In this document: piece after piece, positions 4,012 through 57,520 of the stretch | Position numbering within the stretch: position 1 is the stretch's first letter | Layout of the letters: each line of letters opens with the position of its first letter | Source of the DNA: Haliclystus octoradiatus | Lineage: Eukaryota; Cnidaria; Staurozoa; Stauromedusae; Haliclystidae | Direction: 5' to 3' | NCBI GenBank assembly: GCA_916610825.1 | Contig: OU744447.1 | Location: 11,267,751 to 11,331,750 of the forward strand | DNA: 64,000 nucleotides | Program-made: the position numbers and the translations under genes | Notes under the pieces: model-generated | The model's database searches: none | The model's input: only the letters and a program-made list of their open reading frames with translations | Told to the model about the DNA's origin: nothing

Positions 4012-4049
4012 TACTCCACCAACAATTCAGTCTCTTATCAGAGAGTCTT

Positions 4050-7188: not shown

Positions 7189-7359
7189 CTGTGCATGAGT
7201 TCTCATTACATGCTATTGTTCTCGATGCATCTCCAGTGCATACCAATCCACCATTAGCTGGAATAGGATTATTACATGCTCGAACTTCGTTAATTTCTCC
7301 TCCACCACATGTCACCGTACAGGTTCCTTCAATTGCCCAACGCGACCATTCTCCATTGA
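7189..7359 (-). CDS. Gene A TSP1 repeat 3 exon
   Basis: 171 nt, phase 1-1. Encodes WSRW, CTVTCGGG and six cysteines ending ENSCTG. The donor GTATAT follows, so a further exon is expected unless the intron is retained. Confidence 0.9.
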
Positions 7360-10300
7360 CTGTATTTTCATAGAAAAGTGCAATATACATTAGAAAAGTA
7401 TCCATATCAGGGCTTTGTCTGAATTATACAGCATTACTGATATCATACATGTTACATACAGCTTGACTCCTGTGTTACACAATGTATAGTAACTGAAAGA
7501 CACATGAAACATTGTTTAATTTTAAAATGATCTTTAAATTTGGACACATGTTGTACTGCTGAAGCTGAAGAGCTATCATATCACTGTCGTGTAAGGGAGG
7601 AGATAGTATAGAAAAAGAACCTCTAGTGAGTTATTTTTCAAAATGTTTTGAATGACAATCATATTGCAACCCGGGAATCCAGGTCTAGCCACTAAAATAC
7701 ATATCACGCTCTTACCTGGACAAGGATTCGAGTTACACACTAAGGTTTGCGAGCTTTCTCCAGTGCAAGGTAATCCACCGTTAATGGGAGTTGGATTGCT
7801 GCATTCTCGAATTTCCTCTATTTCCCCAGAGCCGCATAATAGTGTGCAGGCTCCTACGGTTTGCCAGATTGACCAACCACCATCCACTATGGATATATTT
7901 AAGATAAATTATAATCAAGTGATGACATTTCTTGACGTTGTAATATATGCAATAATACAGATAATCCATTATCAGGGAAGTATGTAAACATTTGTGTTGA
8001 TATAACTTTCCGATGTAAAGCATATTTTGTGCTAAGAATGTAATTAATCAGATGTTGCTTGAAGATAACTTATTTTAAAACCTTGCAGTCAAAATTCATT
8101 GAGATATTTACAATTCGATATTGATAACATCGGGCAGATAAATCGAAGCCAGATTGAAATAACAAATTAAAAGAATAAAATATTATATTACAAACAAAAG
8201 ATGAATAATTTACTGAGGATAATTTCAAATGATGTAAATATTGAAAGATACTCGTGATATAATCAAGCAAGGTCTATGGAAAAATAGTGAATGACTGAGT
8301 AAGTAGTTAGAATATCAACGGATAGGAGTCTAATCCAACTGAAGAATATTAGAAACATTTGCACTCGAACTATGGAGACATGCAAATAGCAATACATAAT
8401 GGTAAGATACCTGAGCATGGAACCAAAGTACACGATTGTGTGCTAGCTGTTTGTCCAACGCAGTGTATTCCACCATGAGCGGGATAAGGATTTGAACAAC
8501 TTCGACTTCTTGTAATAATTCCAGCACCGCACGTTACCGAGCATGGTTGGCCATCAGACCAATCAGACCATTGTCCATGAACTGTCAAGTAAGATAGAAT
8601 AATAAAAATATTAAATACTAACATGAAATTTAAGCTATGATAATGAGATTCAGATCAAGATATGGATTTCAGACATAAATTTTGAGTTGTCTACTGTCTA
8701 ATAATAATAATTATAAATAATGTTTAATATATTTTGATTTTCCGAATCAATTTCCTGTTAAGGTTAATCAGTTTACTTGTTCTGGGGAACACTTTGAGGT
8801 AATGTTAATTTTTATACTCAATTATTTCATTATCACAAACCTGGAGGGTCGATCGAGCAAATGTCTTCAACCTGAAATATACAGAGAAAGGCTAATATGC
8901 ACAACTGCTCAAATTTAAATAAATAGACATAACTTGACAGATGAAAACGATGCTCAACATTGTATATACAGGATTATAATCGGAATGTCATTTTCTCTGG
9001 CAATTGGACTGCCTTTTGTATAAATAGGAGACAAGATTTCAACCTTCCATTCATCTGGAATTCCACTGAAAACTGAAGGAAATATAGTCCGCTCGCAGAA
9101 GATGAATTACTTTTATCAGCCATTTTTATGATAGATTGGATTTTCTTAACTGCGGGATAGTGTAACTTAAAGTTTGGAAACATGTGTGATAATGTTGAGA
9201 GAATACCAGCATGAGTCATAAGAAAGGTTATGTAAAATAGATGGATAGATATAAATCGGAATACAAGGCAAAAAGAAATCAGCAAGAAGTTCAGCTTGAT
9301 GCACATGGAATGCTACAAGATGTTCACGAACGCCAGTTATATATTGGATTTTTCAATGGGGAATCCTCCCATGTCAGTTTAGCAGCTATTCACAAGAGGG
9401 TTTTGTATTTCTATCGTATTTCGTATTTCTCGTATTTCTTTGATGTTATCCTATTTCAAACGTTTCTGTATCGAGTGGGTGTGTGGATGTTTGAACAATT
9501 AATTTCGGATACTCATTTTATCCTCGGATTTTTTGATAGCCAGACAGGTCTGTTTCCTTTGATGAGGTGCTTATAAGAAAATGGAGCGTGTTTTTCAATA
9601 ATGTTCATCAGGAAATATTTCCACTCTCTTCAAAGTTCATTAGCAGAAAGCAGATGACCTCGGCTGCCGAATACAATTCGTGGAACGGTATTGTGGAGAT
9701 GTCTTTATTCAACATTTCAAAACATAGACCTTTCTAGTGCGTTTGTAAGTAACAATTTTAGGACTCTGTCGGGGACTCTGTTTCTTTATGATGAACTGTC
9801 TGGAACTTCAAAGATGTGATGAACAAGTTATATATGATTAATAGCTGCGTTTGCAGCATCAGCAGGTAATATTGTGCAATCGATGAAATGATCAGTGGTT
9901 GTTACGAGAACGACATTAATCTGTGTTCTTCATGATGGTCTGCTAGGATTGATGATGAGAGGTAAAAGTGCATGATCGTAAATTGGCTTGTTATACCGCT
10001 GCAGTTTCAATCTTGCCTGCCTGCTTGAATGAAATCAAAGTCTCAAACAATTATAATTGCAAGACTTTTCCTCAAAATTTCGTTGGTGATGTTTGATAGA
10101 TGATGTAGCAATAAAGTACCAGGTGGCGGGTAAGTGCTACTTAATAAAAACCATTTTGTTCATTCTTAACGTAAAATACCGGCTTGTTACTTCATTTGTT
10201 TGATTAAAAGTTGTAGAACTTCACGGGCGTATGATACCGTAGATCACCTTCTGCTGTGCTTTTCGGTCGATCCTTGCGCACCGGAGCATCGTTGTGCATT

Positions 10301-13128
10301 GACACTCGAGGCCTATTTTCCATAAAATCTGTTGAATTTTACATGCAGTGTCACTACTGAGATCAATAAAAATAATATGAAAACCGCATTTCTATCAGTG
10401 AAAAGAGCCACTTGTCTAGAAACAGATGAATTGTAAGGGTGCCTTCTGTAGGGTGATATTGCCTCAATAACTTTAATACTTTCGTAGCATCGTGTATCGT
10501 TGAAGGGCTACTTGGCTCTTGCCAATTTATTTATTGCATAGAGAGACAATGGCTGAACATTTTTTTATTTACTATGTCAAGCATTTCATTCGGTTTGCCT
10601 CGATCGAAGACTATTGCAGTTCACGAAATTGTAGTCATGGCAGTTTTTTGTGGACCAGGATGATGATGAACGTCATCACAGCACATGATTTTGATATAAA
10701 GAAACATATAATAAAATGAATGCCTGCTCTCCCTGAAAATTTTAAACTTATCGAATTGGCTCTCCCTGTTCGTAATTCTGGCTAGTTTCTCTAAAAGTTA
10801 TATCATGTATAGTATATGTATATTAGCTTGAATTGAATTTTTGTAGAAGATTTCACTATAAATATGATTTAATCTAATTGCATTCAATCTAGTTATTCGA
10901 ATGTCCAGGATACTGCAGAAATGAATTCAAAATTTTGGTCCTCACATTAGCAATATTTCTAATCTCTTAGAAATGTATTTCGCGTTATATAGTCATGACA
11001 ATTAGGAAGCTATTGTTCTCTTTGCGAAATGGATTGAAAAGTTACCTGTGATATGTACGTTACATTAAATCATGCTATTCAAATGAGATCGAATCGCAAG
11101 ACATTCAAACTGAGTTACACAAGATATTAAAAGTGTACACAAGATATTCTAGCGGCTTTTGTATAGTCTCATATTTTTATTAATTAGCCTGATTTTCATT
11201 TAACTAGATTCCATATAATGTATAATCAGCATTGTATGACGTAATTTAGTTTGTATTTAAATAGTTTGTTTTGTAATTTATAAGTTGGTGTGTTGTTGGA
11301 AGGCGTTGTGAGTTCATCAGCTCTATGAACCCAACCCTAAATAAATTGTACTTGATTGCATTCATAATAGTCTTTTTGCTAATTGACTAATAGAACCAAC
11401 GGCATTACTCAACATTATACAGTTCTCATTTTGGCCAGATCATCGGCTATATCATTCTTTCTTCGGCTATAATTGCAAGATATATTTAGCGCTAAAAATT
11501 GATTAAACTTTCATATGTAAAAATCATAACCATTTCAGACTGTAGAAAATCAATAAATTGCCACATTTAATCTCCTGTCGCAGTAAAATATCCCATTTTG
11601 TTATCGATTTAAAATCCTTTATTTGTAAAAAATCCGAAGAGAAAAATGGTAATACAAGTCAAACGTAAAAGTATACGTACCATTGAAGATCAGTCAAAAA
11701 ACAGGTTGTTGTTTAGTTAATCATTATGATTTAAAATTATATTGTCTATAATTCCACTACTTCTCACATAGATCAACAGTCTGGCGCACCTGTTGACTAC
11801 GAGCCTCTTTGCCTCTACTTGTCGATTTCATATTTCTCATTGTTAAAACAAGTCTCATAGCAAAAAAACGCAGGATAATTCTTTGAATTTACTTTGTTTA
11901 CACCACCTCACTTTTAAACTCCGAAGAAACATATTCACACGAAATTTTCGATTTTTTGAAAAAAAGGGTAAAACTTTTCTTCACTGTGACATCACTGTGG
12001 AACATTACTGTGACTTTTGTTTGAAGTGATTGGATGTTGTATCAGGCTCTTCGATTTAGTTCAATTAATATTTCGGACAGAATATTTGATACAAAGAGAA
12101 TATCAGTTCAGCATAACAATAAACAACATATATTACTTGATTTCCTTAAAGACTAAATTAAACATTAACTTTTAATTGTGTAAATGGATATTCATTTTAA
12201 CGTTATCTAAAACAGTCTGTCTCTCGCAACTGATATCTGACGAAGAAAATATATTGATGTATTGAGGTTTGTGCGCATGCGTTAAACTTTATTTGATGGG
12301 TCTTAAACATGGCACCTAATTAATTAAACAATAGCCTTCTAATTATGGAATTGTGTAATTGATCTAGATACAAATAATGTTCACATAAAAAAGAGGCAAA
12401 GCATGTACATACATCACTCTGTGCTGCCATTTCCCTATATGTAGTGGTTTTATAACTGTACCACGTAAAAGAGAACGTTTAAGGGGTCTATTTACTTGTC
12501 TTACTGTACGGTCGTTTCTGTTGTATCAAAGAGCTCTGACTAACACTCGTGTAGCCCTTAGCATCTCTCCCTGTAATTTCAGCAGACACGGCGTACCATT
12601 ATAATGATAAAGAGTACAACTCTATATATTAACTGTGTCGTTATTCAATCTGGCACATATCAAATCCTAGTATTGGCACTATAGCCACTATGTGTAATCG
12701 CTTTTAGAAAACTTCAAGTAATGATATCCTATGGAGATTTACACACGGCCAACGTTTACTTAATTAACTATAAACAATACCTTGATTGACACTGATGGAT
12801 TTCCAGACATGACTCCTGTTATAGGGTTGACTTCTAATAATTGATTTCCATTGTCTTTTAGAGGCACATCATGGTACTTACAGTTAGAGTTAACATTTCC
12901 TGAACTGAAACCAATTCCATTACAATCTCTGCCAGTTAAACATTTTTGCACACACGTTAATCGACTCACAGCATTAATACTATTAACCTCATTATTTGTG
13001 TTTCCACTTTCTGGCCGCAGCGGAAATATACGGCGACGAGTATTGGTGTTAGCTGAGTCACAAATTTTTCCAGAGGCAAAATTGCAGAAAGTAGCTAGAT
13101 AAATCAGTAACATACATATTAGCTCCAT
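7189..13128 (-). CDS. Gene A: secreted PAN-like / TSP1-repeat protein (3' end not found)
   Basis: Split gene with exons 12781-13128, 8841-8871, 8411-8581, 7716-7886 and 7189-7359 (complement). Exon 1 gives a signal peptide and a PAN/apple-like module. A 31-nt mini-exon supplies a further cysteine, and three exons of exactly 171 nt each encode one TSP1 repeat. All junctions are GT-AG and agree in phase: 0 after exon 1, 1 thereafter. TSP1 modules usually bind extracellular partners or glycans, so a secreted adhesion, matrix or recognition role is inferred. No C-terminal exon like that of gene B was found below 7,189. Reading through the last donor would add about 40 residues before a stop near 7,064. 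Head-to-head with gene B. Confidence 0.8.
7716..7886 (-). CDS. Gene A TSP1 repeat 2 exon
   Basis: 171 nt, phase 1-1. WSIW is present, but the fucosylation position reads CTLLCGSG, with leucine where Ser/Thr is expected, so this repeat probably lacks O-fucose. Six cysteines, ending SNPCPG. Acceptor CCATAG, donor GTAAGA. Confidence 0.9.
8411..8581 (-). CDS. Gene A TSP1 repeat 1 exon
   Basis: 171 nt, phase 1-1. Encodes a full TSP1 repeat: WSDW (C-mannosylation type WxxW), CSVTCGAG (fits the O-fucosylation pattern CxxS/TCxxG) and six cysteines ending LVPCSG. Acceptor TTGACAG, donor GTATCT. Confidence 0.9.
8841..8871 (-). CDS. Gene A mini-exon (31 nt)
   Basis: A TTTCAG acceptor and a GTTTGT donor bracket 31 nt coding VEDICSIDPP plus one base of the next codon. 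Entry phase 0 and exit phase 1 exactly join exon 1 to the TSP1 exons. It carries one cysteine, the sixth of the PAN-like module. Gene B has an equivalent 25-nt exon. Confidence 0.75.
8945..10230 (-). mobile_element. LINE remnant (CR1/L2-like), endonuclease to RT start
   Basis: Broken minus-strand frames show late endonuclease sequence (LLPLIINPSRPS, then VVLVTTTDHFIDCTI), the linker (HAPFSYKHLIKGNRPVWLSK) and the beginning of RT (IPDEWKVEILSPIY). Many stops and frameshifts. It lies in the large intron of gene A in the same orientation as the gene. Clade assignment is inferred from motif style only. Confidence 0.65.
10262..10475 (+). mobile_element. 5'-truncated tRNA-derived SINE
   Basis: Matches the body and tail of the SINE copies at 31.5 and 35.3 kb: GCATCGTTGTGCATTGACA, CCTATTTTCCA, and the tail GGGTGCCTTCTGTAGGG. 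The tRNA-like head is missing. More diverged than the other copies, so older. Confidence 0.7.
10476..12780. other. Gene A intron remainder, no feature recognised
   Basis: A+T-rich intronic DNA between the SINE tail and exon 1. I saw no exon, RNA gene or clear transposon end. Confidence 0.4.
12781..13128 (-). CDS. Gene A exon 1: signal peptide + PAN-like module
   Basis: The ATG at 13128 opens a hydrophobic signal peptide (MELICMLLIYLATFCNFASG). The mature part has cysteines in a PAN/apple spacing: KICDS, then LTCVQKCLTGRDCNGIGF, then SNCKYHD, five in all. The exon ends at AAG followed by a GTATTG donor, phase 0. Similarity to gene B exon 1 is in architecture and cysteine order more than in sequence. 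Confidence 0.8.
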
Positions 13129-19090: not shown

Positions 19091-19094
19091 ATTC

Positions 19095-23995: not shown

Positions 23996-23999
23996 TGTA

Positions 24000-25075: not shown

Positions 25076-25084
25076 GATATGAAC

Positions 25085-37440: not shown

Positions 37441-37449
37441 GTCTGCTTT

Positions 37450-38009: not shown

Positions 38010-38470
38010 TATATTTTTGTCGGTAAAGATCAATATTAACTGGCAGATAGAGGAAGGTGTTAGCCTTCACTTACATATAACCGTAAAATACATATTACTA
38101 AGTTTAAAACACATAGTTATAAGTATAGAATTTGAAGGCAATGGAAAATTAACATTTGCAATGCTTTGATAAATCAATTGCATCTAGCCTTGATTTGAAG
38201 GTTGCCAACGTTGGTGCAATTACAATTTCGTTTGGTAGTTCGTTCCATCACGAAATGACTCTTGAACAGAAAAAATTGATGCTATTGTTAACATTAGGAT
38301 GGACCTGCATGCTTTTCAGTTCTAGATTATGCCCACGCATGGTATATTTGTTAACATCGAAGATGAATAGTTCATTTATATCTACAAGGTTATTTAATAC
38401 TTGGTAAACTAAATATATAGATCAAATTTGATCCTTCTTAGTTCAAGAGTTTCTAATTGTTATTTAATTA
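38010..38470. other. Region between Gypsy tether and LINE, no match
   Basis: A+T-rich with short frames only. It may be LINE 3' untranslated sequence or another insertion. Confidence 0.3.
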
Positions 38471-40355: not shown

Positions 40356-40356
40356 T

Positions 40357-41030: not shown

Positions 41031-41073
41031 TAGCCAAGCATTAATTCATCAGAGTATAGTTTATTTCAACAAT

Positions 41074-41960: not shown

Positions 41961-42253
41961 TGAAGCTTTCAAAGCAAAATTTAAAGCAAATTGTCCAGGC
42001 ATTTAAAATATTAGGGAAAGTATAAACGGATTGAGTAATAGTATCAGAAGTCAGATCGTGACAAAACTATAGACTCATTTGCTAAGATCATATATTTTTC
42101 TAGTCAATAAAAGTATTCAAACCGATTTGTTTGAATATAACAACGTTTCACTCATTTTAATAAAATAAACTATTTGTCGATACAAATAATGAGTATTATA
42201 TGATATTCTGTATCGTGTAAAATCATTTACAAAATATCCCATGAAATAGAAAT

Positions 42254-42514
42254 CTAGTTAATTTTCGAGACAGGATATTCGATTAATTTAGCTTTAAAAA
42301 CATTTATATCATTTATATAATGTGTGTATGTTGAATCGTTTACATCCAACGGTGATATCGTCAATGTATCATTGAGATTAACAAAATCCGTATCATCATC
42401 ATTATTATCATCGGATGCAGTATCATCATTATCTTCTTCGCTTGATCCTGATCCACTTTCAGAATCGGATTCATTGTCAACCTCCTTTGTTGAAGCTAAA
42501 GAACTTCCAACAAC
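42254..42514 (-). CDS. NRDC: Nardilysin terminal exon with acidic stretch
   Basis: 261 nt from the acceptor TTAATTAG to the TAG stop at 42254-42256. Starts VVGSS, passes through a long Asp/Glu/Ser/Asn-rich run (SESGSGSSEEDNDDTASDDN and on), and ends INDINVFKAKLIEYPVSKIN. The end matches the family C-terminus; the acidic run looks longer than usual. Confidence 0.85.
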   Translation of the reverse strand, partial: VVGSSLASTKEVDNESDSESGSGSSEEDNDDTASDDNNDDDTDFVNLNDTLTISPLDVNDSTYTHYINDINVFKAKLIEYPVSKIN

Positions 42515-45500
42515 CTAATTAACCATATAAAAAAGTATAAAGGAAATATACCCCTATATATCGGTAGGCATTAAAGAAATGGTCTCAGAATGATGGGGAA
42601 TAGTTGGATCAAAACATATCAACATTTTTATTACTCAGCGAAATTTCTCATTGCTTTTTTCATCTTTGTTAAACGCGTATCATTTTCACGCATGTGAAGA
42701 AAACCATACGTCCAGTAAATTGAATGCAGTGGAAATTGTTTCCCGCGAAAAATGATACTTCTACAATTCACTATTCGATTTAATAACCCCGGGGGGCACT
42801 TCCATACATCGGCTAGACGGGAACGTGCCATTTCCAAGGGGTGCATTTGCGTTTTACGTTTTATTTTTGAAGAATTTTGAACTTTTTCTTTGCTATGATC
42901 GCAAATACATGAAATTTTAGGTATTAACGATACAGTAAGCCTCTTCAAAGTTTGGATGCTTCATTGTCCTGGAATGGGACAAATAATGTAAATTCAATAG
43001 AAGTCAAAGGAAAAGGATTATTAAACTCTTGTCTGGTAAAAAGGTAAAAAGCGCGAGAAAATAAATGTGTCATAAAAGGGTTTGATTATTATGACGATTA
43101 GTCTTTTGTTATTTGATTGATTTGCAAACGAATTGACACTCAGATGATGACCTTCGCTTTGACCTTATTGTCTCGAGGGTAGATTTCAAAGTTTTGATGT
43201 AAAATATGTCATCGTTTTAACAGACGCGTTTTCTATAACAACTTTTTTAACGAAATTTTACTAGAAACTATTTGTCCACATAGGTTTTTTGAAATTAAGA
43301 AAGAAAATTGTCATAGACTGTGGTCATATGATGGATTCATGTGTGTTCTGATAAAGCGGGAACGGTGTCTGGATAATGATATTATATTTTAGATATAGCG
43401 AGGCATATGTCGATGGGATTGCATTTGAATTTGATCTCGTTATGGTACTCCAATACCTGATCAGTAAAAGCGAAAAGAGCTCGTAGTTAATCCATAATAC
43501 GAATGTTAGTATAACCGATTGCATTTGAATTTGATCTCGTTATGGTACTCCAATACCTGATCAGTAAAAGCGAAAAGAGCTCGTAGTTAATCCATAATAC
43601 GAATGTTAGTATAACCTCGAGCGCGACAACATCTGAAATACTAACAAGCAGCTTTCAACTTACTTGTACGCTGAGTTTTCGGTACTTTAAAGAATTACTT
43701 CTGAATTGCTGGAACCATTTTATCAAGTCTTGTTTTGTTATAGAACGAAGAGCTTCGACCTGAATACAATCAAATAAGTGAAAATAATAATAAAAATTTC
43801 TCCAGGATGCTGATGCATAAAGACATTTGCTTAAATAATTCAGCATCCATTGTTATTAATACTCACTGATAAGAGTCAAGAACACACTTGACCCTTTATG
43901 TAATTTCATTCAGCCTAGCACATGACTTGGTATAAGGCGTGCGTTGAATATAGCTAGGTCATCATTTCTTGTTGATTGGAGATCATTGACCCTAAATGCT
44001 ATAGTCGTTCTTTATTTATTACCTAGCGTCTATATGAGCATATCTCTTATCTTATATATCTCTTATATGGGTCTATAAGAGCCATAATAATCATTCGAAA
44101 TAACCAAAGGTCAAGGTTAGTAGATTTGCCCCATGTGAAATCCAGTTATGTCATGACAACCCACGACGCTCCATGGCAACCACTAACATTATACGGGTTT
44201 TAAACTTTTCGTTGCCGGTAAAATTATATGTTGGGTAATGGATATAGCCCTCTACCCGAACGGTCTACATCCGATGGTTTTAACTCGGCAGCTATAGGAC
44301 ACGTGTTCGAAAATAGCAACAAGCTGCGACAAATATAATGACTTTTCAAAACTCTTTTTTCATCTGTTCTCAATTTTATAATGACATTGAATTGCTGCAT
44401 TACATGAAATTCTGTTAGTAATATAAAAATAGTAATGTTAGCGTTCCACTTTCTAATCTTACCTCTCTGTCTAAGCGACAAAATAAATAAGTTTCATTGT
44501 AAATTTCAGAAAAATTTCGGTCAGACTCATCGGTCAATGATAGATCCACGTGTTGTTTCAATAACATTAAGGCATTGAGCTAGAATGAATGATAACAATC
44601 ATAAGGATCGCAACAACTAATTACAGCACAAATGTAACAGTATGAAGCAGGTTGAAGTTTTGGCAATAAACATGCAGCCACTACATTTTCATAAATTAGT
44701 CGATTACTTTCTATAGCCTTTTTAACAGAAATATACCTTGTATGGAATTCTCTGACTAGAGATGTTGTCTAAGTGCCAAATATATATTAATGTTTTAAAT
44801 TTCTCCTGCTAATATTTTTAGGCTTTGTGTAAATTTATTTATAGAAACCTGTATCTGCCTGTTAAAAAATGTTATTTTTTGTAAAATTTTGGGACAACAT
44901 AAAATCAAATCACGTCAAACAAAATAAAGGGTAAGTTGCAGTCTTATACTGCTTGATTATAGTCGAAGAAGGGCGCTGTCATTAATTTGAATGACAGAAA
45001 TTTGTTATAATAATTATGAATAGTAGATCAAAGATCACGAGTTAACTCCATTACTCTGAGTTTCGTGTAAATACGCTCTTCAGACGGTTTATTAAAATCA
45101 AAAAGAAACGTATTGCTCTGCTTTTAGCACTGAGCATTCAAATTGATGTTTTGCCCATACAACTACTTTATTAGTAATTATGATTTATACTAACCTGTTG
45201 CTGGAAGTTTTCATTTGTTAACTCAACGAGAATTGTATGAAATGTTGTAAGAAATTCATCAATCCTTTCATCAATTCGATTAGCCCTGAAGATAAAATAA
45301 TATTGTTCAATAACTAAAAGTATCTATATTAATTTTATCCAAACGAAATTTGTCAACACAAAACCAATTATATCTTTGACAATTGGGTGTTTTCGTAGAA
45401 TAGCAAAACAATGTTCTATACCGGTGAGAAAACGATAGAACCAATATTTTCTCACTGTGCAAGCAAAACAATATAACCAATACATTTATTTCCAGAATCG

Positions 45501-47620
45501 CATGGAAATGAAAAGCCTCGGGAAAACAAACTTTATATTATAGAAACTGTGCTTTTTTGAGGATCTCTGAAGTCTTACGTATTTGGAACTATAGGATTTA
45601 GCAATTAGTGTAAATTATAAAATCAATTGCTTTCCAGCTCTTGAAAACCCTCACAAGGATTATATCCAGGGATTTGCCGAGAAATCTTCTTTGAAGGGGG
45701 TGTCGAGCAATAAATTTGTCAACTTCGCCGGAGTCCGATCCGGATATGTAGCCGTAAATCGGGAACAATTTAAGGTGCGGTATACGGAGTTGAATCCACC
45801 ACACAAAGCTTTGCCATGCGTGTTTAAATTGTACATTGACCTAAAGTCATCATCGGAAGAGATTCCATCAAGACCAACATTTCTCTCGTCTGTCCTGCTC
45901 AAACAGCAAAAGTTGATGTTGTCTCTATATACAGTATTCAGGATTTGTGTGGACATGAATTAAAAGAATGGACAAGAAATTAAAAGAACTTTCTTACTTC
46001 TACTATTAGAACGAACATCCCAATATTCATCTGCCATTTGAAGGAAGATTTGCCACCTGACCAAGTTGTCAGAGGGGATGACACGCCCCCATACCCCATA
46101 CTAGGAACGGCCCTGATTATATCGACAAGTTAGAGCATAAACATTAGGCTAGCGTGATTGATCAAGGATATTAGCGAGGCTATACCCTTGGTCATGTTTC
46201 CATTTTAAAATTTAATTCAGAACGTATAAATTTCAAGTTTTGAACTCAACCTTGATGAAAGCACGAAGAAAATCTTACTTAGGCACCGTACGAGGATTTG
46301 CCATTTTCTTTGCGTACCATTTTAGCACAATGCTGGCAATTTTGAGGTATCCGGATTTTCTCCAGTCATATTTCTGCTTTCCAGTGGGAAATCGGAAATT
46401 GTACTAGTGTGAGGTACACAGAATCCTTATGTGGGGTGTCCAAGTGGCATTTTGAATGCAAAATGTCAGGAAATGATACACTTGCAATTCTGGGGTATAA
46501 TCTCCAGAAAAACCTGAAATTTTGGGGTGCTAGCTAGATTTTCAAAATAGCATACCCTTGTACAAAAATCCCCCCTCCCCTGGGTATGAAAGTGCATGCA
46601 TGAGAGTTCTTGGACTTTTTTAATTCTCAAATCTCAAAGACTAACTAAAAATGTATACATAAAGAATGGCATGTCCTGTCTAATCGGCTTATCGGATCCT
46701 CTCCACAACGATTCTATCTTAATGTAGCCAGACATAATCTATCCGATGCAGTGACAATCGCGCAATTAAGTTCGCCATTCAACGCTTTATTGTTGGCCTA
46801 CTGTTATATGATAGGATAGGACTTCCTTGTTGAACATTTTATGATCAAATGATAAATATACATTATGATGCACGTTATGAATTGAAAAAGAAATGTAATT
46901 TCAGAGTATAGACATACGTGAATTTGTTTGCTTCAGATTCAACAGTAACTGACATTCCAATTATCCCAAACGTACTACGACAACTTGCATAAACAGTATA
47001 ACTATAAGAATGGAAAACATAAACAATGTCCACATGTTGAAGAATAATGAAAGCCATTCTTTATATGACTTACATGCAACACAAGTATCCTACAGTTGCA
47101 TATGTATTAACTTCACAATATATTTGTGTAGCATAGACTATTACAATGCAGCAGCCAGCAAGCAGTTGTGAGCTCCTAACATGCTATCATTGCTATATGT
47201 ATATCTTGGAGGAAAGCTGATGCCTCATGAATTCAAAGTAGCCGGAAGACGTAACATAAGTACAGCCTAAATACCAACATTTGTTACTTCTCCGAGTAGT
47301 AAGTTTGATTCTTCACAGGAAAATTATAATTATTGCAAGAATATGTTGCAAAAATATGATTGTTCAATGCTCATGTCCAATTTTTCAGCAACTTCAATTT
47401 GCAAGAGAAAAACGCTTGAAAGTTGGACAATGGACAAGTAAAATATAATTAGCTTGAAACAAGACATTTTTGCTCAAAATAAGAGATTTTGGCACAAAAC
47501 AAGTGGAATAAATTTGGAACAAGCACAATATTCTTGCAAGAATTGCAAAGTTATCACGTCAGCATACCCTAGTTGCCATTTTGTTCGAAGGATATCAAAA
47601 CAAGGTTCTTCCATCATGTG
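42254..47620 (-). CDS. NRDC: Nardilysin (M16 family), last six exons
   Basis: Exons (complement) 47568-47620, 46918-47001, 45195-45285, 44463-44579, 43664-43759 and 42254-42514 join in frame with GT-AG sites to 234 codons including the stop. The translation follows the C-terminal part of nardilysin, a zinc metalloendopeptidase of the inverzincin type that cleaves at dibasic sites. Signposts are HMMEEPCFDILRTKWQLGY, then ASCRSTFGIIGMSVTVES, DEFLTTFHTILVELTNENF, YLFCRLDREVEALRS and YRKLSVQVVG. The catalytic HxxEH lies far upstream in the family and is not in this window. No preceding exon is visible between 47,621 and the duplication edge at 48,227. Confidence 0.9.
43417..43616. repeat. Exact 100-bp tandem duplication
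   Basis: Units 43417-43516 and 43517-43616 appear identical, both starting GATTGCATTTGAATTTG and ending GTTAGTATAACC. It lies in the last nardilysin intron, within 50 bp of an exon. Confidence 0.95.
43664..43759 (-). CDS. NRDC: Nardilysin exon (LIKWFQQ block)
   Basis: 96 nt, phase 0-0, acceptor TATTCAG, donor GTAAGT. Codes VEALRSITKQDLIKWFQQFR and ends KLSVQ. An exact 100-bp tandem duplication lies just 3' of it in the next intron. Confidence 0.9.
44463..44579 (-). CDS. NRDC: Nardilysin exon (DESDRNFSEI block)
   Basis: 117 nt, phase 0-0, acceptor CATTCTAG, donor GTAAGA. Codes LNALMLLKQHVDLSLTDESD and RNFSEIYNETYLFCRLDRE, matching the family block with a conserved DRN..E....YLF.RL..E pattern. 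Confidence 0.9.
45195..45285 (-). CDS. NRDC: Nardilysin exon (RIDEFL block)
   Basis: 91 nt, acceptor TCTTCAG, donor GTTAGT, ends phase 0. Codes ANRIDERIDEFLTTFHTILV and ELTNENFQQQ. Confidence 0.85.
45667..46115. mobile_element. hAT-type non-autonomous element, 449 bp
   Basis: Ends CAGGGATTTGCC and GGAACGGCCCTG are imperfect inverted repeats. Both flanks carry the same 8 bp, ATTATATC (45659-45666 and 46116-46123). It sits in a nardilysin intron. Open frames inside on both strands show no recognisable domain. Confidence 0.8.
46124..46900. other. Nardilysin intron, no feature assigned
   Basis: Around 46,260-46,600 the sequence is G-rich and holds several GGGGT runs. An old transposon is possible, but ends were not found. 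Confidence 0.3.
46918..47001 (-). CDS. NRDC: Nardilysin exon (YASCRSTFGI block)
   Basis: 84 nt, acceptor TCTTATAG, donor GTATGT. Codes YTVYASCRSTFGIIGMSVTV and ESEANKF. The CR.T.GI.G.SVTV pattern separates nardilysin from insulin-degrading enzyme. Confidence 0.9.
47568..47620 (-). CDS. NRDC: Nardilysin exon (EEPCFD block)
   Basis: 53 nt, acceptor TTTTACAG, donor GTATGC, phase 0 in and 2 out. Codes HMMEEPCFDILRTKWQL plus GG, which pairs with the first base of the next exon to restore QLGY. Confidence 0.85.
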
Positions 47621-48226
47621 CTGTAAAAACAAAATATAAATATAAATAACAGTAATGAACATATCTATTCATGATAGTAAATATTAATCCTTTGTTATCT
47701 TGCAATACAGGCAAATGAGATACAACTCTATGAAGTATATATTATGTTTAACAAAAGAGAAGGATCAAGAAAAAAGATCAGTACCATAATGTAGCTATTC
47801 TAGCTGAAATACGTATATCAAAACTGCATAGACTTTATTTACTTTTAATGTATGTTCATTGTAGAGTTTATTTTCATTGCTCTAGAACTTCTTTTTTATG
47901 GTAAAAACATACATATACGACACAGTAACACACATATTATAAATGTCCACAAGATCCACTATAGCTAGCAATTATAGTGTAGGTCCAGTACTGGACCTTG
48001 TGTGATCTTTCAAATAACTAAATTGCAAAAATAAGTAAACAATTACTACACTCAGAGAACATGTAAAATGTAAGTCCTCGGATTTAAGAAGTCTGAAACA
48101 TGAACAGATCATCTTTGTACAAAATTGTCTTGTACTATAATGTACTACTGAGCTATACAGTTGTTGTATACAATAGCAAAACAGGAAGAAGTTTTGCAGG
48201 AGAATGACTTGGAAAATAATTATTAC
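47621..48226. other. Between nardilysin exon and duplication edge
   Basis: About 600 bp of A+T-rich sequence without a recognisable exon on either strand. The duplicated block starts abruptly at 48,227 after GGAAAATAATTATTAC. Confidence 0.5.
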
Positions 48227-48228
48227 GA

Positions 48229-48613
48229 GATTACGAATTTAGTCCGTTACTCTAAGATTCTCAGCAGCCCGAATTCTTACCGAGACGAAAATGCGTAACC
48301 ATATTACACCGGTGTTACAAGAGCTGCATTGGCCACCGATAGCAGAAAGAATATAATTCAAAATACTTCTAACTACATTTAAAATAATTAATCATATTGC
48401 GCCTGTTATTTAAAAGATTATTTAATTCCTTATCAACCAATTATAAAAACATTGTGATCGATAAGTCAACATTATTTAAAAATTAAAGTTTACACATCAA
48501 TAGATACTTTTAATGCAAAATTAAAAACATTTTTATTCAAAAAAGCTTTTATGTAACCGGCCCAAGTCTGTATAAATACTTATTACAATAAAACTCAAAC
48601 GGTGTTTGTGAAC
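48229..48613 (+). mobile_element. LINE 3' fragment, copy 2
   Basis: Same HITPVLQELHWPPIAERI fragment as at 29.5 kb, at the very start of copy 2. Confidence 0.65.
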
Positions 48614-48880
48614 AACTCACAATTGTTCCATTCCCGGCATTCCATTCATGTTACGAGCAATAGAGTTATGTACTAGAGCAACGAGTATGAGAAATTATTT
48701 AATAGATCTAGCTGTCTCTCTACGGCTCCCAAAGATGACAATAATTTGTAAGTAATGATAACAGTGCAATATTTGGCTTCTTCATTCTATCATTGGCAGG
48801 GAGAAACTTGCTTATCCGGAGAAAATGTTGAAATTGAATTAATCCAAGATTCTATATCTTTTTTTGTATTTCTGTTATAG

Positions 48881-48905
48881 ATGGAATGTGGTTTCAACTC
48901 TGCTG
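48881..48905 (+). CDS. Gene C mini-exon
   Basis: Identical to 30108-30132 including both splice sites. Here no PAN exon precedes it within the duplicated block. Confidence 0.6.
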
Positions 48906-51900
48906 GTATGTATTATTATATCTGATTATTTAAATGGATATGTACTACTTACCTAATTAATCAAAGTAAGATATAACAACCCCTTGACCAGCATCTTCCA
49001 ATTGGTCATAAAGTAGCTTTTCAACTTCTATAAGCTTCTAAGTGGGATATCTGTTGATGAAAGGGGATGAAAGGCTGAGGCACAACCAGAGAACCTGTTT
49101 TTGACGGGGAAAGGGGTGAGAAACCCTTGAAATTAGCCTTCCTGATAGCCTTCATTTGTTGAGTAACATTTTAGAGATGAAATGCAAACTCCTTCATGTA
49201 CTTTGCTACAAACAGGGGGAATTCCAGGGGATTTGCCAATGGGCATATTTATCTTAGCGAAATAATATTGGGTCATTGCTTGTAGGAAATCCTTCTGGCT
49301 GAAAATATTTTAGAGGATCTGTTTTCGAAGCTCCCTACAGGGATTCAAAAATGTCACGCGTGTCATTAGAAACACTACTTTCCAATGCTGATAAGTCTTG
49401 ATTAGTATAAAGTTTTGATTTGCCCATATAATAGTGTAAATCATTTTTTTTGTTAACATTCTTTAATAAGAAATATGATTTTTTAGAAAATGTACAAGAA
49501 TATATAATTGCTCTCTTCAACTACAGTATTCAATTTCTGAAATCGCATGACCATTACATTTTATCTAACCTAATCAGACTTCTATATCCAGCACGAAAGA
49601 TTCGCAATTGCTATAGTAGTCATTGTTGGTATTCGGCAGAGTACATAATAAAAGTACAGTATATATAATTATCATATGTTATTTTATTTTTGGTTATTAC
49701 TTGAACGCAGTAAACGGAAGTTGGTCAAGTTGGTCTGTAAAAGATCCATGTAACAGGTCATGCGGCGCTGGGCAATTGACTGAAGAACGTTCTTGTACTC
49801 AACCGATTTGCAATGGAGAAACTTGTATTGGGAATTATGAAAGAGTTGTACAATGCAACACTCATTCTTGCCCAGGTTAATCACAATCAAATTCTAAACA
49901 ATGTATAATCATGCAGTATATTGATTAGTATATTAGCTATATAAATTTTTGTATGTGATGCCTTCTCATATTGTTCAAAATCTCGCGTCTTGGTATCATA
50001 GACTGAGTAGACTCTAGCATGGATGGGCAGTGAGCTCTAAAATACTATTTCCGCTAGAAATATTCTCACTTAATCCTCGATGCTTAAATACCTCTAAATA
50101 CAAAATATGCCTGTTATGGTACAACAATACATATGGAAGAAACGAAAAACTTCAGACATTCGCATAATCAACTTTCACCTCTTTCACGCAGATTCACAGC
50201 ATTGCCAACTTTGTCACTAATAATTCTACTGTTGTAAAATTCAGTATCACGTTTGCAAATCAAACGCTTGAAACTTTCAAAAGGAAGGATTAGCTCAGAT
50301 GGCAGAGCAACCGAATTTCAGATCGGATCATATCTGATCAACTGTGGTTCAAATACCCTACAGGTCAACTGAGCCTTGACTTTATCTAAAACATCAAATG
50401 AGTACCATCTGAGGATGACGGATGGAATGGCTCAGAGGGAATTGCATTGTGAGTAGCTGCGGCGCATCGTTGCGCATTGACAATCGAGACCTATTTTCCA
50501 CGAAATAAACTCTTGTACAAATAGAGGAATTGTATGGGTGCCTTCAGTAGGGCGACACTGAAGGTCTACATTAATGCACTTTCAAACTTTCAAGTTACGG
50601 AAAAGGCTTTGAAACGTCTGTTTTCACATTCTATAATTATATTCGTGTAAATGATTTATAAAATGTTCTGATTTACTACCAAAATTATGTTATAAAATTT
50701 AAAATTTCTAATCTTCTAAACAATCCGATTGGATTGCAAAAGGTGGATATGCTTAATTATCGTCATTACTCTCTGTTGCTTGTGTATCAATGTCATGTTA
50801 GAATGAATGAAATTATTTAGCGTATGGGACAATTATGACATGATTTTTGCATATAAAAAGTACAGATACACAACCAGATGATTATTTTTCAATTATTTCG
50901 AGCAACACTATCGAAATAACTTAACATAAAACACAAGAAATTGAACATGGATGTTGATTGAAGCTTATACTTTTCTAGTTTCCTAATATCAGTAATTTAA
51001 CACATGCTGCATGGCTCATTTAAATATTTGAATGTTTTATTATACATATAGTTCATGGAGACTGGTCAACATGGACACTACGTGGAACTTGCTCGCAGAC
51101 CTGTGGCGGTGGATTAGCTACGGAGGAAAGAAAATGTGACTCTCCCTCTCCTCAATTTGATGGAAATGAATGCACTGGAAATGACGAGAAGACAGTTTCA
51201 TGCAATGCAGATCCATGCCCAGGTGAATCTTTTTTTTTATCTCCCTGTGAATTGTAAATAAGACAAATGCAATTTTTGGATAGCTTATGGTGATTTCCCT
51301 TTCCAGTCGAGGGCTTTGGATTTCTATTCATCTGCATTGGATCTGTTCTTTGTTGGTTAATAGTAGATGCAATTCTATTGTAGAGACCATCAATGACAAT
51401 CAGTAGAATGCACCTTGATAAAATAGAGTTGATCATCATCATCATAGTAATCATCTTTCTGTGTTCAGATATCGTGTTCTTCTATAAATATACAACAGCT
51501 CCATTGCATAGATTGTACGTTTTACAGACTGACGAGTATACTAACTTTCAAATAGTACCTAAACTTATTGCAAATGCATAAAATAACAGTATAGACGGGT
51601 AACATATAGGGTAACATTAAAATATATTGCTGCCTTTCTCAACTAAATTATCAGGATACCAATGTTTTGACTATTGTAATCTATTCAACTCTATAAAGTC
51701 TCTATTTTGACGAACGGCAATTTTGCATATTTTTGACATGCTCCTCGTTATTAAATGTTTGCTATCTGCTTTGCACATTTATACCTATAGACCCTACAAA
51801 TTGTTTCCTTACTCAGCAGTGTCCGCTAACATATAGTTGAATTTTTTTAATATGTATAGCTTTCAATCAAGCCAGACACACTGGCATATGAAAAGACTAA

Positions 51901-54900
51901 TAAAAACACCCATCGCAATTTATCACACATGCATAATGCAAATATATAAGATAGGATGGAGTGGTAACATTTATGTAACAAGAGTCTGATTCGTGTAATT
52001 CTATGTACCTGTGAGTCATGCAGAGGAAATCTAATAATGGTATTATTTTACTGTTCAATTCAGCTGATATCAATAAAGAGCTTTTAAAATCATTGATCTC
52101 AGCCAAGAAGCCACTCCTCTAGAAATAGAGGAGTTTTATGGGTGCCTTCAGTAGGGCGACACTGAAGGTCTACATTAATGCACTTTCAAACTTTCAAGTT
52201 ACGGAAAAGGCTTTGAAACGTCTGTTTTCACATTCTATAATTATATTCGTGTAAATGATTTATAAAATGTTCTGATTTACTACCAAAATTATGTTATAAA
52301 ATTTAAAATTTCTAATCTTCTAAACAATCCGATTGGATTGCAAAAGGTGGATATGCTTAATTATCGTCATTACTCTCTGTTGCTTGTGTATCAATGTCAT
52401 GTTAGAATGAATGAAATTATTTAGCGTATGGGACAATTATGACATGATTTTTGCATATAAAAAGTACAGATACACAACCAGATGATTATTTTTCAATTAT
52501 TTCGAGCAACACTATCGAAATAACTTAACATAAAACACAAGAAATTGAACATGGATGTTGATTGAAGCTTATACTTTTCTAGTTTCCTAATATCAGTAAT
52601 TTAACACATGCTGCATGGCTCATTTAAATATTTGAATGTTTTATTATACATATAGTTCATGGAGACTGGTCAACATGGACACTACGTGGAACTTGCTCGC
52701 AGACCTGTGGCGGTGGATTAGCTACGGAGGAAAGAAAATGTGACTCTCCCTCTCCTCAATTTGATGGAAATGAATGCACTGGAAATGACGAGAAGACAGT
52801 TTCATGCAATGCAGATCCATGCCCAGGTGAATCTTTTTTTTTATCTCCCTGTGAATTGTAAATAAGACAAATGCAATTTTTGGATAGCTTATGGTGATTT
52901 CCCTTTCCAGTCGAGGGCTCTGGATTTTCTATTCATCTGCATTGGATCTGTTCTTTGTTGGTTAATAGTAGATGCAATTCTATTGTAGAGACCATCAATG
53001 ACAATCAGTAGAATGCACCTTAATAAAATAGAGTTGATCATCATCATCATAGTAATCATCTTTCTGTGTTCAGATATCGTGTTCTTCTGTAAATATACAA
53101 CAGCTCCATTGCATAGATTGTACGTTTTACAGACTGACGAGTATACTAACTTTCAAATAGTACCTAAACTTATTGCAAAAGCATAAAATAACAGCATAGA
53201 CGGGTAACATATAGGCAGTGTTGTGAGAATTACTTGAAAAAGTAAGTAATTAGATTACAAATTACTTATACCAAAAATTCAAAAATTACATTACTAATTA
53301 CTTTTCCGAGATAAGTAATTAATTACTAATTACTAATTACTTCGCTGAAAAAGTAATTAATTACTAATTACTTTGTTACTTTTGGAATATTTATCAAAAC
53401 AATTCTGTCTGTAAAGATTCAAAATTATATGTATTTTAGGCTAGACAGGAAGCGTTTATTATATGTTTACTGTCTGTAGCTGAACCATAGTCAAACAACA
53501 TTGAAATATTTAAAACTTTGAATGACCAAACAATAAATATACGCATGTAAAAAAGAAATTATAAAATAAATAAACTTTTTCCCAATAGTTTGGTCAAATT
53601 AATGTGATTAATCTCAGTGTCAATTTCTGTGTTTGAACATGACTATTTCTAGCGAAAAATTGTTGCAAAGATTATGTTTTTAGAAATGTCAACAAATGGT
53701 GTGACGAATAAATTCTATGTAAACAATGAATTAGTTTATTTTGAAAATCTCGCCGCTGCTAATATAATTTCAAAATCAAAATATTTAGAAAACAATAACC
53801 AGCTTCACACAAACAACAATTATTTCAAATCATTTGGACTTCACAACAATTATGCACTGAAAACATTATACCTACTTCATAATAACAAAACAATGAAATA
53901 AATCGGGAATAAATTACTTTGTCGAGTAATCGGGAAGTAACGTCAATTACTTTATGGCTGCAAATACTCGTTACTTGAAAAAGTAATTAATTATTTATTT
54001 ATTACTTTTCTCAAAAAAGTTATTAATTACCCCTAAAATTACTTCAAAAGTAACGAGTACCAAGTAACGCGTTACTTTTGTAACGAGTACTCACAACACT
54101 GGCAATGGTAGAATGATGGTTTTTAAGTATTTAACAGGATTTTAAAAGATTAGGCCTACAAAGGATATTTAAGTATTCTTTGTTTTATCAAACCCATTTT
54201 GTTTTGCTGTTTGTATTAACTTTACATTATTCAAAACAATATCGAATGAAGAAAACATTTGTTGAATGTTTACTTTTGAAAACTATTTTCGAATTGTTGC
54301 TATTCAATTATCATTTAATATACAATTCAAATCAATAGACAGTTAACCACAAAGGGCCTCCATTCTCATCATAATTTATTATTGAATTGCTACATTAATT
54401 TTAACTTTTAAAAATAAGAATATCTTACAAATTGATTTTTTTCAAGGGCCCTTCAAAACGAAAGGCCCTAAGCTGAAGCTTATTTAGCTTACGGGTTAAT
54501 CCGGCGCTGGCCGTAGATTTATCCACTTCAATTTTTTTGTAACTTAAATAGAGCGCTGCTTTTTATTTTCAGCGCTTTAAAAAATGTCTTCAGTGCAACA
54601 TACCCTTACGAAAACACAAAAGTAGCAGTTTATTATTGATGAAAACTAGAGTTGATTACATAATGATGTGGCTTCTTCATAAAACTTGAACTTAACTAAA
54701 AATTCCAAATTTACGCGTCCAAATAGAAATGTGCGCACTACTGGCATAGAAAATAAAGTGCAAAAAATTGGTGGGCGCCTAAGATATTCCAGTTTGCAGA
54801 GAAGGGCGCTTGACGAGTTCTTGTGGGCGGTCATGTGATATTCGCCTGCGGGTGCGGCACTTTAACGAATGTTTGCCTTCTCCCAGGGCAGAAAATCAAT

Positions 54901-57520
54901 ATTTTGTAGATTAAATTTAGTAAGTAATAAAATAATAAGGCTTAAGAAAAAAAATTTCACTGGCGGCTCCAGATGCGGAATAAAGGGTTACCACATACTT
55001 GCCATGTTTGTATTCATACTTACTAAACGAGAAAATGTTGGGAGACACGAGTGAAGCGCTAAAAAATCACGAGCTCCGAGCGAGTGATTTTTAGCTTCCC
55101 GAGTGTCTCCCAACATTTTCGAGTTTAGTAAATATGAATACAAACATTTGCAAGCATGTGGTAACCCTTTTCTAAAATAAAACAAATGTCGGAATCTCAT
55201 TCGACGGCGACTTTTCAATTCATGAATTCACAATTTAAAATTCAATTTGAATTCATAAACCAAGCATGAAGAGAATCCCACAACAAGATAGATTTTGTCG
55301 AATAAAGAAAGACATATACAAGAACGTCTGTAATATAAGTGGTACAATAGTTCTTAAGCAAATTAATGCAGTAATTGTTATTTAAAAGTTAGGTTTACCT
55401 TGAAACAGCATAGCCTATAATTGTCTTTCATTCCGTGTTTTTATTTTGCATGTTACATGATCAATAACTCATTTACCACGCTTTTCGATAAATAAAAACA
55501 TCTTGAGCTAAATGTCGTTTTGTAAATCGTAGCCATTATTGAGATATTTATTGGATTGTTATCAAAAAGTTATAAATTCTGTATTTTATCACAGATCATA
55601 CTTTTTGAAGCTTGCGGTTTTTCCCGGTTTTCGGAGCCATGTTTTACCCTAGGATTTCATGCACGCTCTTTCGACCAATCAGATCGCAGAAAACCTTCGT
55701 GATATTTTAGAAAATATTATCTTGGGGATTGCTCTGCCATACTCTGCAAACTGCCAGTGATGTGAGAATTACTTTTGAAAAGTAATAAATTACATTACAA
55801 ATTACTTTTCCTCAAAAGTAACTAATTACATTACTAATTACTTCAGCCTAAAAAGTAATTGATTACAATTACTAATTACTTTGCCAAAAAAAGTAATTAA
55901 TTACTAATTACTTCATGATTACTTTAACTTGTGAAACAAAAGATATTGCCTCCCTTTCGATAAAGACATGTCTCGTTTTGATAATCATGGCGGCCATCTT
56001 GTTTTTTTACGTAGGGGAACGATCGATTTGATAATATTAATTTAATACTGGTGACTTCAGCAGAAGATAAATTGACGTTGAAAACTTTTTAATAAAGTTG
56101 ACAAATAAATGGTTTCATTTGATTTATCAAAATGGTTTATTTTTGTCTTATCAATCTATTCATATAGCCATAAATTTTACATCATCTTTTCAATATTCGA
56201 AACTCACTCAAATAAAAAGTGAAAAACTATGGAATCTATTGATCAACAGAACAATGTCAGAACAGAGAAGAATAGGTTATGGGATAGGGTTTATTGGTAA
56301 TATATCACACAATTCACCTGGTTTGAATAGCTCTCGTGAAAGCTGCAAATAATGTGAGACTACATCGCAGACAGAACAATAAAAAGCGGAACTTAGTGAC
56401 AGCAGCGCCAGTGAAAATTATCACAAGACAACAAAGCAAATATTTTGTAATCATAAAAGTAATTTGAAAAGTAACGTCAATTACTTTTTCTCAAATAATA
56501 CTCGTTACTTCAAAAAGTAATCAATTAGATTACTTATTACTTTTCTCAAAAAAGTAACTAATTACTCCTAAAATTACTCCAAAAGTAACGAGTAACGAGT
56601 AACGCGTTACTTTAGTAACGAGTATTTACAACACTGCATATAGGGTAACATTAAAATATATTGCTGCTTTTCTCAACTAAATTATCAGGATACAAATCTT
56701 TTGATTATTGTAATCTATTCAACTATATAAAGTATCTATTTTGACGAACGGCAATTTTGCATATTTTTGACATGCTCCTCGTTATTAAATGTTTGCTATC
56801 TGCTTTGCACAATTATACCTATAGACCCTACAAATTGTTTCCTTACTCAGCAGTGTCCGCTAACATAGTTGAATTTTTTTAATATGTATAATTGTCAATC
56901 AAGCCAGGCACACTGGCATATGAAATGACTAATAAAAACATCCATCGCAATTTATCACACATGCATAATGCAAATATATAAGATAGGATGGAGTGGTAAC
57001 ATTTATGTAACAAGAGTCTGATTCGTGTAATTCTATGTACCTGTGAGTCATGCAGAGGAAATCTAATAATGGTATTATTTTATTGTTCAATTTAGCTCCT
57101 CCTGTTACAATCGTCACAGATAGCCCAGTCTGTTTTCAAGCAAAAGGAAGAAGCCCAGCTATTTTCACGTCAAACAGAGCTACAGGAGTTTACAAGGTTA
57201 AGCTAATTTCTAGAAGTGGGGGAGGTGTGAAATATGGCAATGATGATAACTGGAGTCAAATCACGCCATTTGGGTGTGGCACAATTAAAATTCATGTTTT
57301 GATCACAGATAACAATAATGATATTATCGTGCAAAAAGATCAATTTTCTGGAGTGCAATCAAATAATAGTGGACCGTGGCTCTCTATTGAGAGTGATTTA
57401 AAAGTTGAATTTACGAAAGGTTTGGAATATAAAATATGGTATAAGGAAGACTATGAAGATGTAGGATCTGATGATAATAGCGGAGAATCCTGTGTAGATG
57501 TTGAGATGTCAAGCAATTGA
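48881..57520 (+). CDS. Gene C: 5'-truncated duplicate of gene B with three TSP1 exons
   Basis: Exons 48881-48905 (mini-exon), 49711-49875, 51052-51222, 52656-52826 and 57096-57520 keep all splice sites and phases and would join in frame from mini-exon to stop. The signal-peptide/PAN exon is missing from the copy. Unless a first exon is supplied from gene B (27691 donor, phase 0) or elsewhere, no secreted product is expected. A TSP1 exon has been added by a local duplication, and the last intron holds a composite transposon. Compared with gene B the terminal domain has one cysteine changed to tyrosine. It could be a real paralogue, an alternative 3' cassette or an unmerged haplotype. Confidence 0.65.
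49711..49875 (+). CDS. Gene C TSP1 repeat 1 exon
   Basis: 165 nt and the same protein as 30938-31102, including the odd seventh cysteine. Confidence 0.8.
50284..50571 (+). mobile_element. tRNA-derived SINE, copy 2
   Basis: Counterpart of the SINE at 31511, with the same internal deletion before the tail. Confidence 0.85.
51052..51222 (+). CDS. Gene C TSP1 repeat 2 exon
   Basis: 171 nt. Differs from gene B repeat 2 by two bases: GGC to GAC (Gly to Asp before WSTW) and a silent GAT to GAC. Identical by eye to 52656-52826. Confidence 0.85.
52066..52174 (+). mobile_element. SINE tail at the tandem-duplication junction
   Basis: Carries the segment TGATATCAATAAAGAGC, the CTCCTCTAGAAATAGAGGAG hairpin and the tail GGGTGCCTTCAGTAGGGCGACACTGAAGG. 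Part of this is absent from the SINE at 50284, so the junction preserves sequence that unit 1 lacks. Confidence 0.8.
52656..52826 (+). CDS. Gene C TSP1 repeat 3 exon (tandem duplicate)
   Basis: 171 nt, 1,604 bp downstream of its twin at 51052 and identical by eye. Keeps acceptor, donor and phase, so a transcript could include both. Confidence 0.85.
53216..54101. mobile_element. Left hAT-type element of the composite (886 bp)
   Basis: Starts CAGTGTTGTGAG and ends CTCACAACACTG. Its right neighbour GCAATGGT is not a copy of the left flank CATATAGG, so it does not look like an independent insertion here. Confidence 0.75.
54102..55754. other. Middle segment of the composite, with a foldback
   Basis: Sequence absent from copy 1. 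At 54982-55171 it holds a ~190-bp foldback: GGGTTACCACAT, TTTGTATTCATA and AAAATGTTGGGAGACAC on the left are mirrored on the right. No gene recognised elsewhere. Confidence 0.7.
55755..56636. mobile_element. Right hAT-type element of the composite (882 bp)
   Basis: Starts CAGTGATGTGAGAATTAC and ends TTTACAACACTG. Subterminal repeats resemble those of the left element, but the interiors differ visibly. A short frame at 56098-56352 has no recognisable domain. Confidence 0.75.
57096..57520 (+). CDS. Gene C terminal exon
   Basis: Copy of 33288-33712 with the same acceptor and stop. At 57234 G is replaced by A, changing the second cysteine of the domain (KCGND) to tyrosine (KYGND). Confidence 0.8.

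Follow-up and report, generated by a model that had tools for sequence, protein, structure and literature searches.

Predicted PAN-like, TSP1 and AJLec-like exon modules in a large gene family of the stauromedusan Haliclystus octoradiatus

The stretch of DNA analysed here, hereafter the window, is 64,000 nucleotides (nt) long (C2:11267751-11331750) and is very likely part of chromosome 2 in Haliclystus octoradiatus (Staurozoa). It contains gene B, a complete predicted gene built from phase-matched exon modules, together with a partial tandem copy of it (gene C) and a more distant relative (gene A). Five exons of gene B, bounded by GT/AG splice sites, could be joined in frame into a protein of 378 amino acids:

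27341..27691, + strand: exon 1, signal-peptide-like N terminus and PAN-like head; 351 nt, ending in phase 0 with a GTAAGT donor
30108..30132, + strand: mini-exon; 25 nt, phase 0 to 1, MECGFNSA
30938..31102, + strand: TSP1a exon; 165 nt, phase 1-1, over the TSP_1 cut-off (E 2.3e-5)
32278..32448, + strand: TSP1b exon; 171 nt, phase 1-1, TSP_1 E 2.6e-11
33288..33712, + strand: last exon, AJLec-like lectin-type domain; 425 nt, phase 1 to stop

All five distinct TSP1 exons tested in genes A and B passed the Pfam TSP_1 cut-off (25.0-53.4 bits against 21.6), and their likeness to TSP1 is therefore more than chance. This result, along with the splice sites, upheld the description of TSP1 exons of 165 or 171 nt, all in phase 1-1, given in a first-pass annotation of this DNA. 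Comparison of full-length gene B with 5.8 billion proteins returned five matches, all with TSP1-type domains. The best matches of the whole protein are TSP1-repeat proteins (SCO-spondin-like, coadhesin-like and properdin-like) that carry TSP1-type Pfam domains and span 28-46% of gene B, with sequences compared for two of the five. The N terminus of gene B is hydrophobic, as judged by eye, and a search of the genome showed paralogues of its head genome-wide. The cysteine pattern of the heads resembles that of PAN/apple domains, but the heads of genes A and B score below curated cut-offs; among family members, 9 of 11 matched PAN_1 at E values up to 0.1 (best 3e-7). The predicted modular plan of gene B is well supported.

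The gene had been described as ending in an unrecognised domain. Pfam and NCBIfam indeed name no family above cut-off for the tail, but a profile of 11 members with head and tail (A1) matched AJLec (6a56) in the Protein Data Bank at E 1.1e-13, over the tail, as the sole match up to E 1. The same head-and-tail alignment yielded 0 of 1440 candidates at E 0.01 against the protein database, in a search that needs shared exact 5-residue words. From its sequence, the domain is probably lectin-type, and it is related to AJLec, which has been described as an 18.5-kDa, Ca2+-dependent galactose lectin of the sea anemone Anthopleura japonica (PMC6070535). Its Ca2+ ligands are Glu141, Asp150 and Asn151 together with main-chain Met147 and Cys48; Cys15-Cys156 and Cys48-Cys61 form internal disulfides, Cys3 and Cys122 interchain ones, and galactose is contacted by Arg64 with Phe67, Tyr97 and Phe103 (PMC6070535). 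The gene B tail shares the cysteines of both internal disulfides and the three Ca2+ side chains. It has four cysteines, all in the two internal pairs, and therefore none for the interchain bonds.

To compare these positions across the family, we aligned 33 tails, comprising gene B and 32 loci; gene C, the duplicates L021, L022, L028 and L031, and loci L030, L046 and L062 were set aside. Cys48 and Cys61 are kept in all 33 tails, as is Asp142. Cys15 and Cys156 occur together in 26 tails and are missing together from the other seven (L045, L047, L048, L049, L051, L055 and L057), which look like one subfamily. Among the Ca2+ side chains, Asn151 is kept in 31 tails, Glu141 in 24 and Asp150 in 20; genes B and C have equivalents of all three.

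A search with the AJLec domain itself found five relatives, three of which are named anthozoan proteins: P0006 of Actinia tenebrosa and P0007 and P0008 of Nematostella vectensis. These homologues are 25-28% identical to the gene B tail and have a WY.ED motif near the C terminus in common with it. They are 177-187 amino acids long and, unlike in gene B, no PAN or TSP1 domain was found in P0006 and P0007. A Pfam scan of P0006, P0007, P0009 and P0010 gave no match at E 0.1, and none is precomputed for P0008.

Profile searches of the genome (262 Mb, 33 contigs) found at least 273 distinct tail exons, on nine contigs, and at least 157 head-like exons. Both totals are lower bounds. The tails are the union of three tail queries and the heads that of two head queries, further head searches being outside the total. 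The matches listed reach down to E 8e-6 for tails and to E 0.006 for heads, and some of the rows contain a stop codon. For 195 of the 273 tails listed, a second tail lies within 50 kb. A same-strand head lies at most 10 kb upstream of 36 of them, compared with a mean of 19.2 and a maximum of 30 in 200 shuffles of strand. Within 10 kb, 37 pairs of head and tail share a strand with the head first, another 12 have the tail first, and in 4 the two exons face opposite ways. The family had been called local; genes A and B do represent it in the window, but gene C is a partial copy of gene B and the family extends across the genome.

The phases at which modules meet are nearly constant. Head donors are in phase 0 in 28 of 28 exons (26 distinct), covering 28 of the 31 head loci (without L046, L061 and L062), and tail acceptors are in phase 1 in 35 of 36 exons (34 distinct), covering 36 of the 39 tail loci (without L030, L046 and L062). 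The distinct counts allow for genes counted twice (heads L011/L058 and L013/L059; tails L028/L059 and L031/L058). The exception among the tails is L060, where a phase-1 candidate exists too. The proposal of phase-matched modules is thus supported beyond the window. With heads in phase 0 and tails in phase 1, any linker between them must be 3n+1 nt long. We therefore scanned 18 intervals, from genes A and B and 16 of the 19 head-tail loci (without L046, L061 and L062), for candidate mini-exons of 3n+1 lengths from 10 to 79 nt. Matches between loci occurred solely at 25 nt, where gene B and 12 of the 16 loci formed 19 linked pairs, some of which join diverged loci on different contigs; no cross-locus match was found in L047, L053, L054, L060 or gene A. 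There were 17 candidates at 25 nt and at most four at any other length. An antisense control over the same 16 loci and gene B gave 0 candidates at 25 nt and two linked pairs, both at 16 nt.

Some of the loci matched at 25 nt have no TSP1 exon that was detected, and TSP1 exons thus appear to be optional phase 1-1 inserts in the gap between linker and tail. Of the 19 other head-tail loci, 4 have one or two detected TSP1 exons and 15 show none; the L052 match is weak (17.9 bits). Gene B has two such exons and gene C three, one of them copied without a base change. These counts support the idea, raised in the first-pass annotation, that repeat number can vary freely.

Most paralogue comparisons gave low ratios of nonsynonymous to synonymous substitution (dN/dS), in a table of 13 loci and 12 paralogue pairs in which pairs share loci and several dS values exceed 1. 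Tail dN/dS was 0.30-0.49 in 11 of the 12 pairs and undefined in one; head dN/dS was 0.28-0.47 in eight pairs and undefined in two. The heads of L045 and L048 have a dS of 0 and their tails a dS of 0.37, while the tails of L045 and L049 are nearly identical. These contrasts indicate that head and tail have separate histories, and that between L045 and L048 points to a probable exchange between head and tail. The predicted modular plan is also well supported for a subset of this large family.

We propose, with a probability of roughly 0.6, that the product of gene B is a soluble, modular protein of lectin type, one member of a large H. octoradiatus family, and that it bridges glycan-coated surfaces. 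The sequence shows that exon 1 provides the signal-peptide-like stretch and the PAN-like domain and ends in phase 0, that the 25-nt mini-exon shifts the frame to phase 1, that the phase-1 gap so created can take any number of TSP1 exons (1-1), and that the AJLec-like domain is in the last exon. Under the proposal, the tail would hold Ca2+ and bind sugar, probably unlike the way AJLec does, while the PAN-like head and the TSP1 spacers would join it to other glycans, to matrix or to each other. The protein could in this manner bridge glycan-coated surfaces of microbes, prey, mucus or tissue. Duplication of whole genes and of TSP1 exons, along with recombination between heads and tails, would generate diversity. 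The proteins of the family may act in recognition as secreted molecules that bind both Ca2+ and glycans. An immune, allorecognition or adhesive role, guessed at in the first-pass annotation, is likewise no more than a possibility.

A number of observations weigh against this proposal. All exon junctions are predicted from sequence, and the head of gene B falls just under the PAN_1 cut-off (21.3 bits against 21.4). No recognised head lies within 10 kb of 237 of the 273 tails listed, which leaves the head-tail plan shown for a minority; the heads of those tails may have diverged, or those genes may be built differently. The 19 linked pairs are not independent, because L045, L048 and L049 are close paralogues, and head dN/dS is 1.03 and 1.29 in two near-identical pairs with few changes. 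As for the tail, structure models had mean predicted local distance difference test (pLDDT) scores of 47.9 and 32.5, so that the small jelly-roll beta-sandwich expected of an AJLec-type lectin is at most a putative fold here. The joint loss of Cys15 and Cys156 may be one event, since the seven tails resemble one subfamily, and all three Ca2+ side chains occur together in only 14 of 33 tails. In gene B, Arg64 is replaced by Ile and the positions of aromatic Phe67, Tyr97 and Phe103 fall in gaps. These differences bar the term galactose lectin for gene B, not kinship with AJLec, because galactose-touching residues are partly not conserved in anthozoan AJLec homologues either (PMC6070535).

Some of these points would suit other explanations. 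Predicted junctions and tails without a recognised head are what might be seen if head, TSP1 and tail exons belonged to separate neighbouring transcripts, but we give that almost no credence, as the phases match and the conserved 25-nt mini-exon makes sense as a linker. Incomplete Ca2+ sets, together with an Arg64 position whose commonest residue is Asp (7 of 33), would fit a lectin fold that has lost its function, keeping the disulfide frame in a protein-binding or stabilising role with no sugar binding; we consider this doubtful in view of the near-constant Asn151, the invariant Asp142 and a tail dN/dS below 0.5 in all 11 defined pairs. The family could also provide adhesive or structural glycoproteins of pedal-disc glue, mucus or matrix rather than a recognition repertoire, the TSP1 and PAN-like modules being matrix binders and the tail a glue lectin. 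Matrix proteins often carry TSP1 and PAN modules. Stauromedusae are described as living fixed to seaweed (PMC9975415), a habit that would suit such a product, but a structural protein would hardly be expected to come with so many diverged tail exons (at least 273, spread over nine contigs), and we regard this role as unlikely, if worth keeping in mind. Returning to the proposed bridging lectin, its wider extension can be offered only tentatively, namely that hundreds of AJLec-like tails, a fixed 25-nt linker, free TSP1 number and head-tail recombination form a lineage-expanded lectin repertoire for diversified innate recognition. The literature searched here yielded no description of such a system in cnidarians.

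Sea anemones and corals had been suggested to be the only animals with AJLec homologues, Nematostella having 7 and Stylophora 29 (PMC6070535), whereas AJLec-related domains were found here at least 273 times in a staurozoan. At gene B and other loci, this domain adjoins TSP1 repeats and PAN-like heads. Provided that they are expressed in the form predicted here, these genes would lend themselves to the study of how exon modules evolve (phase 0, 25-nt linker, phase 1) and would supply many candidate glycan binders.

Self-comparison of the window and 20 kb to its right uncovered a head-to-tail duplication (29454-48225 and 48227-72076), whose aligned blocks diverge by 0.2-3.3% and whose second copy contains gene C:

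29454..48225, + strand: copy 1 of the tandem duplication, starting in gene B intron 1
48227..64000, + strand: copy 2, running on 8076 bases past the window, to 72076
48881..48905, + strand: gene C mini-exon, identical to that of gene B
49711..49875, + strand: gene C TSP1a exon, identical to that of gene B
51052..51222, + strand: gene C TSP1b exon, two base changes from gene B, one amino acid
52656..52826, + strand: gene C TSP1b' exon, a second copy identical to gene C TSP1b
53216..56636, + strand: hAT-like DNA element in the last intron of gene C; 3421 bases, 8-bp target repeat CATATAGG, ends CAGTGTTGT / ACAACACTG
57096..57520, + strand: lectin-like exon of gene C; a single base differs from gene B and turns Cys into Tyr at the position of AJLec Cys48

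Because the duplication begins in gene B intron 1, gene C has no head; the head profile found only the heads of genes A and B in the window (next best E 0.47). These two results rule out gene C as an independent full gene, and genes B and C cannot be counted as two separate pieces of evidence for the modular plan, since one is a partial tandem copy of the other. Gene C carries two copies of its TSP1b block (50509-51610 and 52113-53215, 99.0% identity). The Cys48 equivalent, present in all 33 other aligned tails, is Tyr in gene C. Two Nematostella AJLec homologues lack both Cys48 and Cys61, and loss of the bond therefore need not kill the fold; in gene C, only one partner of the pair is lost. 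We read gene C as a recent 3' duplicate of gene B that has no head of its own and is probably decaying.

Gene C could instead be live, with gene B exon 1 alternatively spliced to either set of mini-exon, TSP1 and tail exons, giving one head and two tails. Its five exons are open and little changed, with splice sites as in gene B, and this second cassette lies downstream of the gene B head on the same strand. Such splicing would need a 21-kb intron reaching past gene B's own stop exon, and the Tyr at the Cys48 position also argues against it; we find it quite improbable. An assembly artefact, in which two haplotypes were placed in tandem, is somewhat easier to envisage: the divergence of the copies is in the range possible for alleles, and 33 haplotypic duplications were removed manually from this assembly according to its genome note, which also gives 337 contigs (PMC9975415). 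The window contains no N, the breakpoint at 48226 is sharp and head-to-tail, and the assembly is reported to rest on 68-fold HiFi data (PMC9975415), so that we hold an artefact to be unlikely. The extra TSP1 copy and the hAT-like insert of gene C do not decide the matter, because alleles could differ in this way.

Gene A, on the opposite strand, has these predicted exons:

12781..13128, - strand: exon 1, PAN-like head belonging to another subfamily, with a signal-peptide-like stretch; phase-0 GT
8841..8871, - strand: candidate mini-exon, unconfirmed; 31 nt, phase 0 to 1, weak donor
8411..8581, - strand: TSP1 exon 1; 171 nt, phase 1-1, over the TSP_1 cut-off
7716..7886, - strand: TSP1 exon 2; 171 nt, phase 1-1, over the TSP_1 cut-off
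7189..7359, - strand: TSP1 exon 3, probably followed by at least one more exon; 171 nt, phase 1-1, over the TSP_1 cut-off

By the head profile over window open reading frames, the head of gene A belongs to the family but is distant from the other members (E 2.8e-7); it scores 14.9 bits against Pfam PAN_3 (cut-off 21.1). Copies of it occur elsewhere, one at 93% identity some 300 kb away (C2:11576478), seven at 38-41% and five weaker. None of its candidate mini-exons resembles that of any relative, the 31-nt one being nearest the first TSP1 exon. No tail exon of gene A emerged when the tail profile was run over the window and the adjoining 10 kb on the left. That flank does contain, about 2.2 kb outside the window and on the strand of gene A, a partial match of TSP1 type (30 bits, E 1.8e-8); gene A therefore probably continues beyond the window on that side. 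The first-pass annotation had given genes A, B and C one plan, and that plan is complete in gene B. The signal-peptide and PAN-like exon ending in phase 0 was recovered for A and B, with PAN below cut-offs, and not for C; conversely, the 0-to-1 mini-exon stood for B and C, at 25 nt, and is unproven for A.

Several repeats and mobile-element remains lie in the window. Open reading frames at 248-4026 (-) and 41074-41968 (-), the first of which separates gene A from the possible exon to its left, resemble what we take to be a long terminal repeat (LTR) retroelement polyprotein, with reverse transcriptase, RNase H and integrase-like stretches. The hAT label of the element in gene C is likewise our assumption. 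Fragments at 38476-40158 (-) and 62285-63967 (-), in both duplication copies, are presumably reverse transcriptase of a long interspersed nuclear element (LINE)-like type. A 209-bp repeat with a tRNA-like start, possibly a candidate short interspersed nuclear element (SINE), occurs at 31513-31721, 35267-35475, 50286-50494 and 59075-59283, with about 92% identity between the two sites in each copy. Elsewhere in the genome, a large array of TSP1 exons is found twice on C7, at 8898763-8918288 and 8965044-8983315, about 66 kb apart and with near-identical scores; it may be another segmental or haplotype duplication. On C2, tail exons are spaced regularly at about 11.2 kb in two regions (C2:34116566-34150590 and C2:36181041-36203872), which suggests recent tandem amplification. 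Finally, the window holds a perfect 100-bp tandem repeat of two copies (43417-43616, 100% identity) and two large inverted repeats of about 88% identity, 15149-16137 / 16677-17667 and 21931-23390 / 25077-26559, the latter containing tandem units of about 192 bp.

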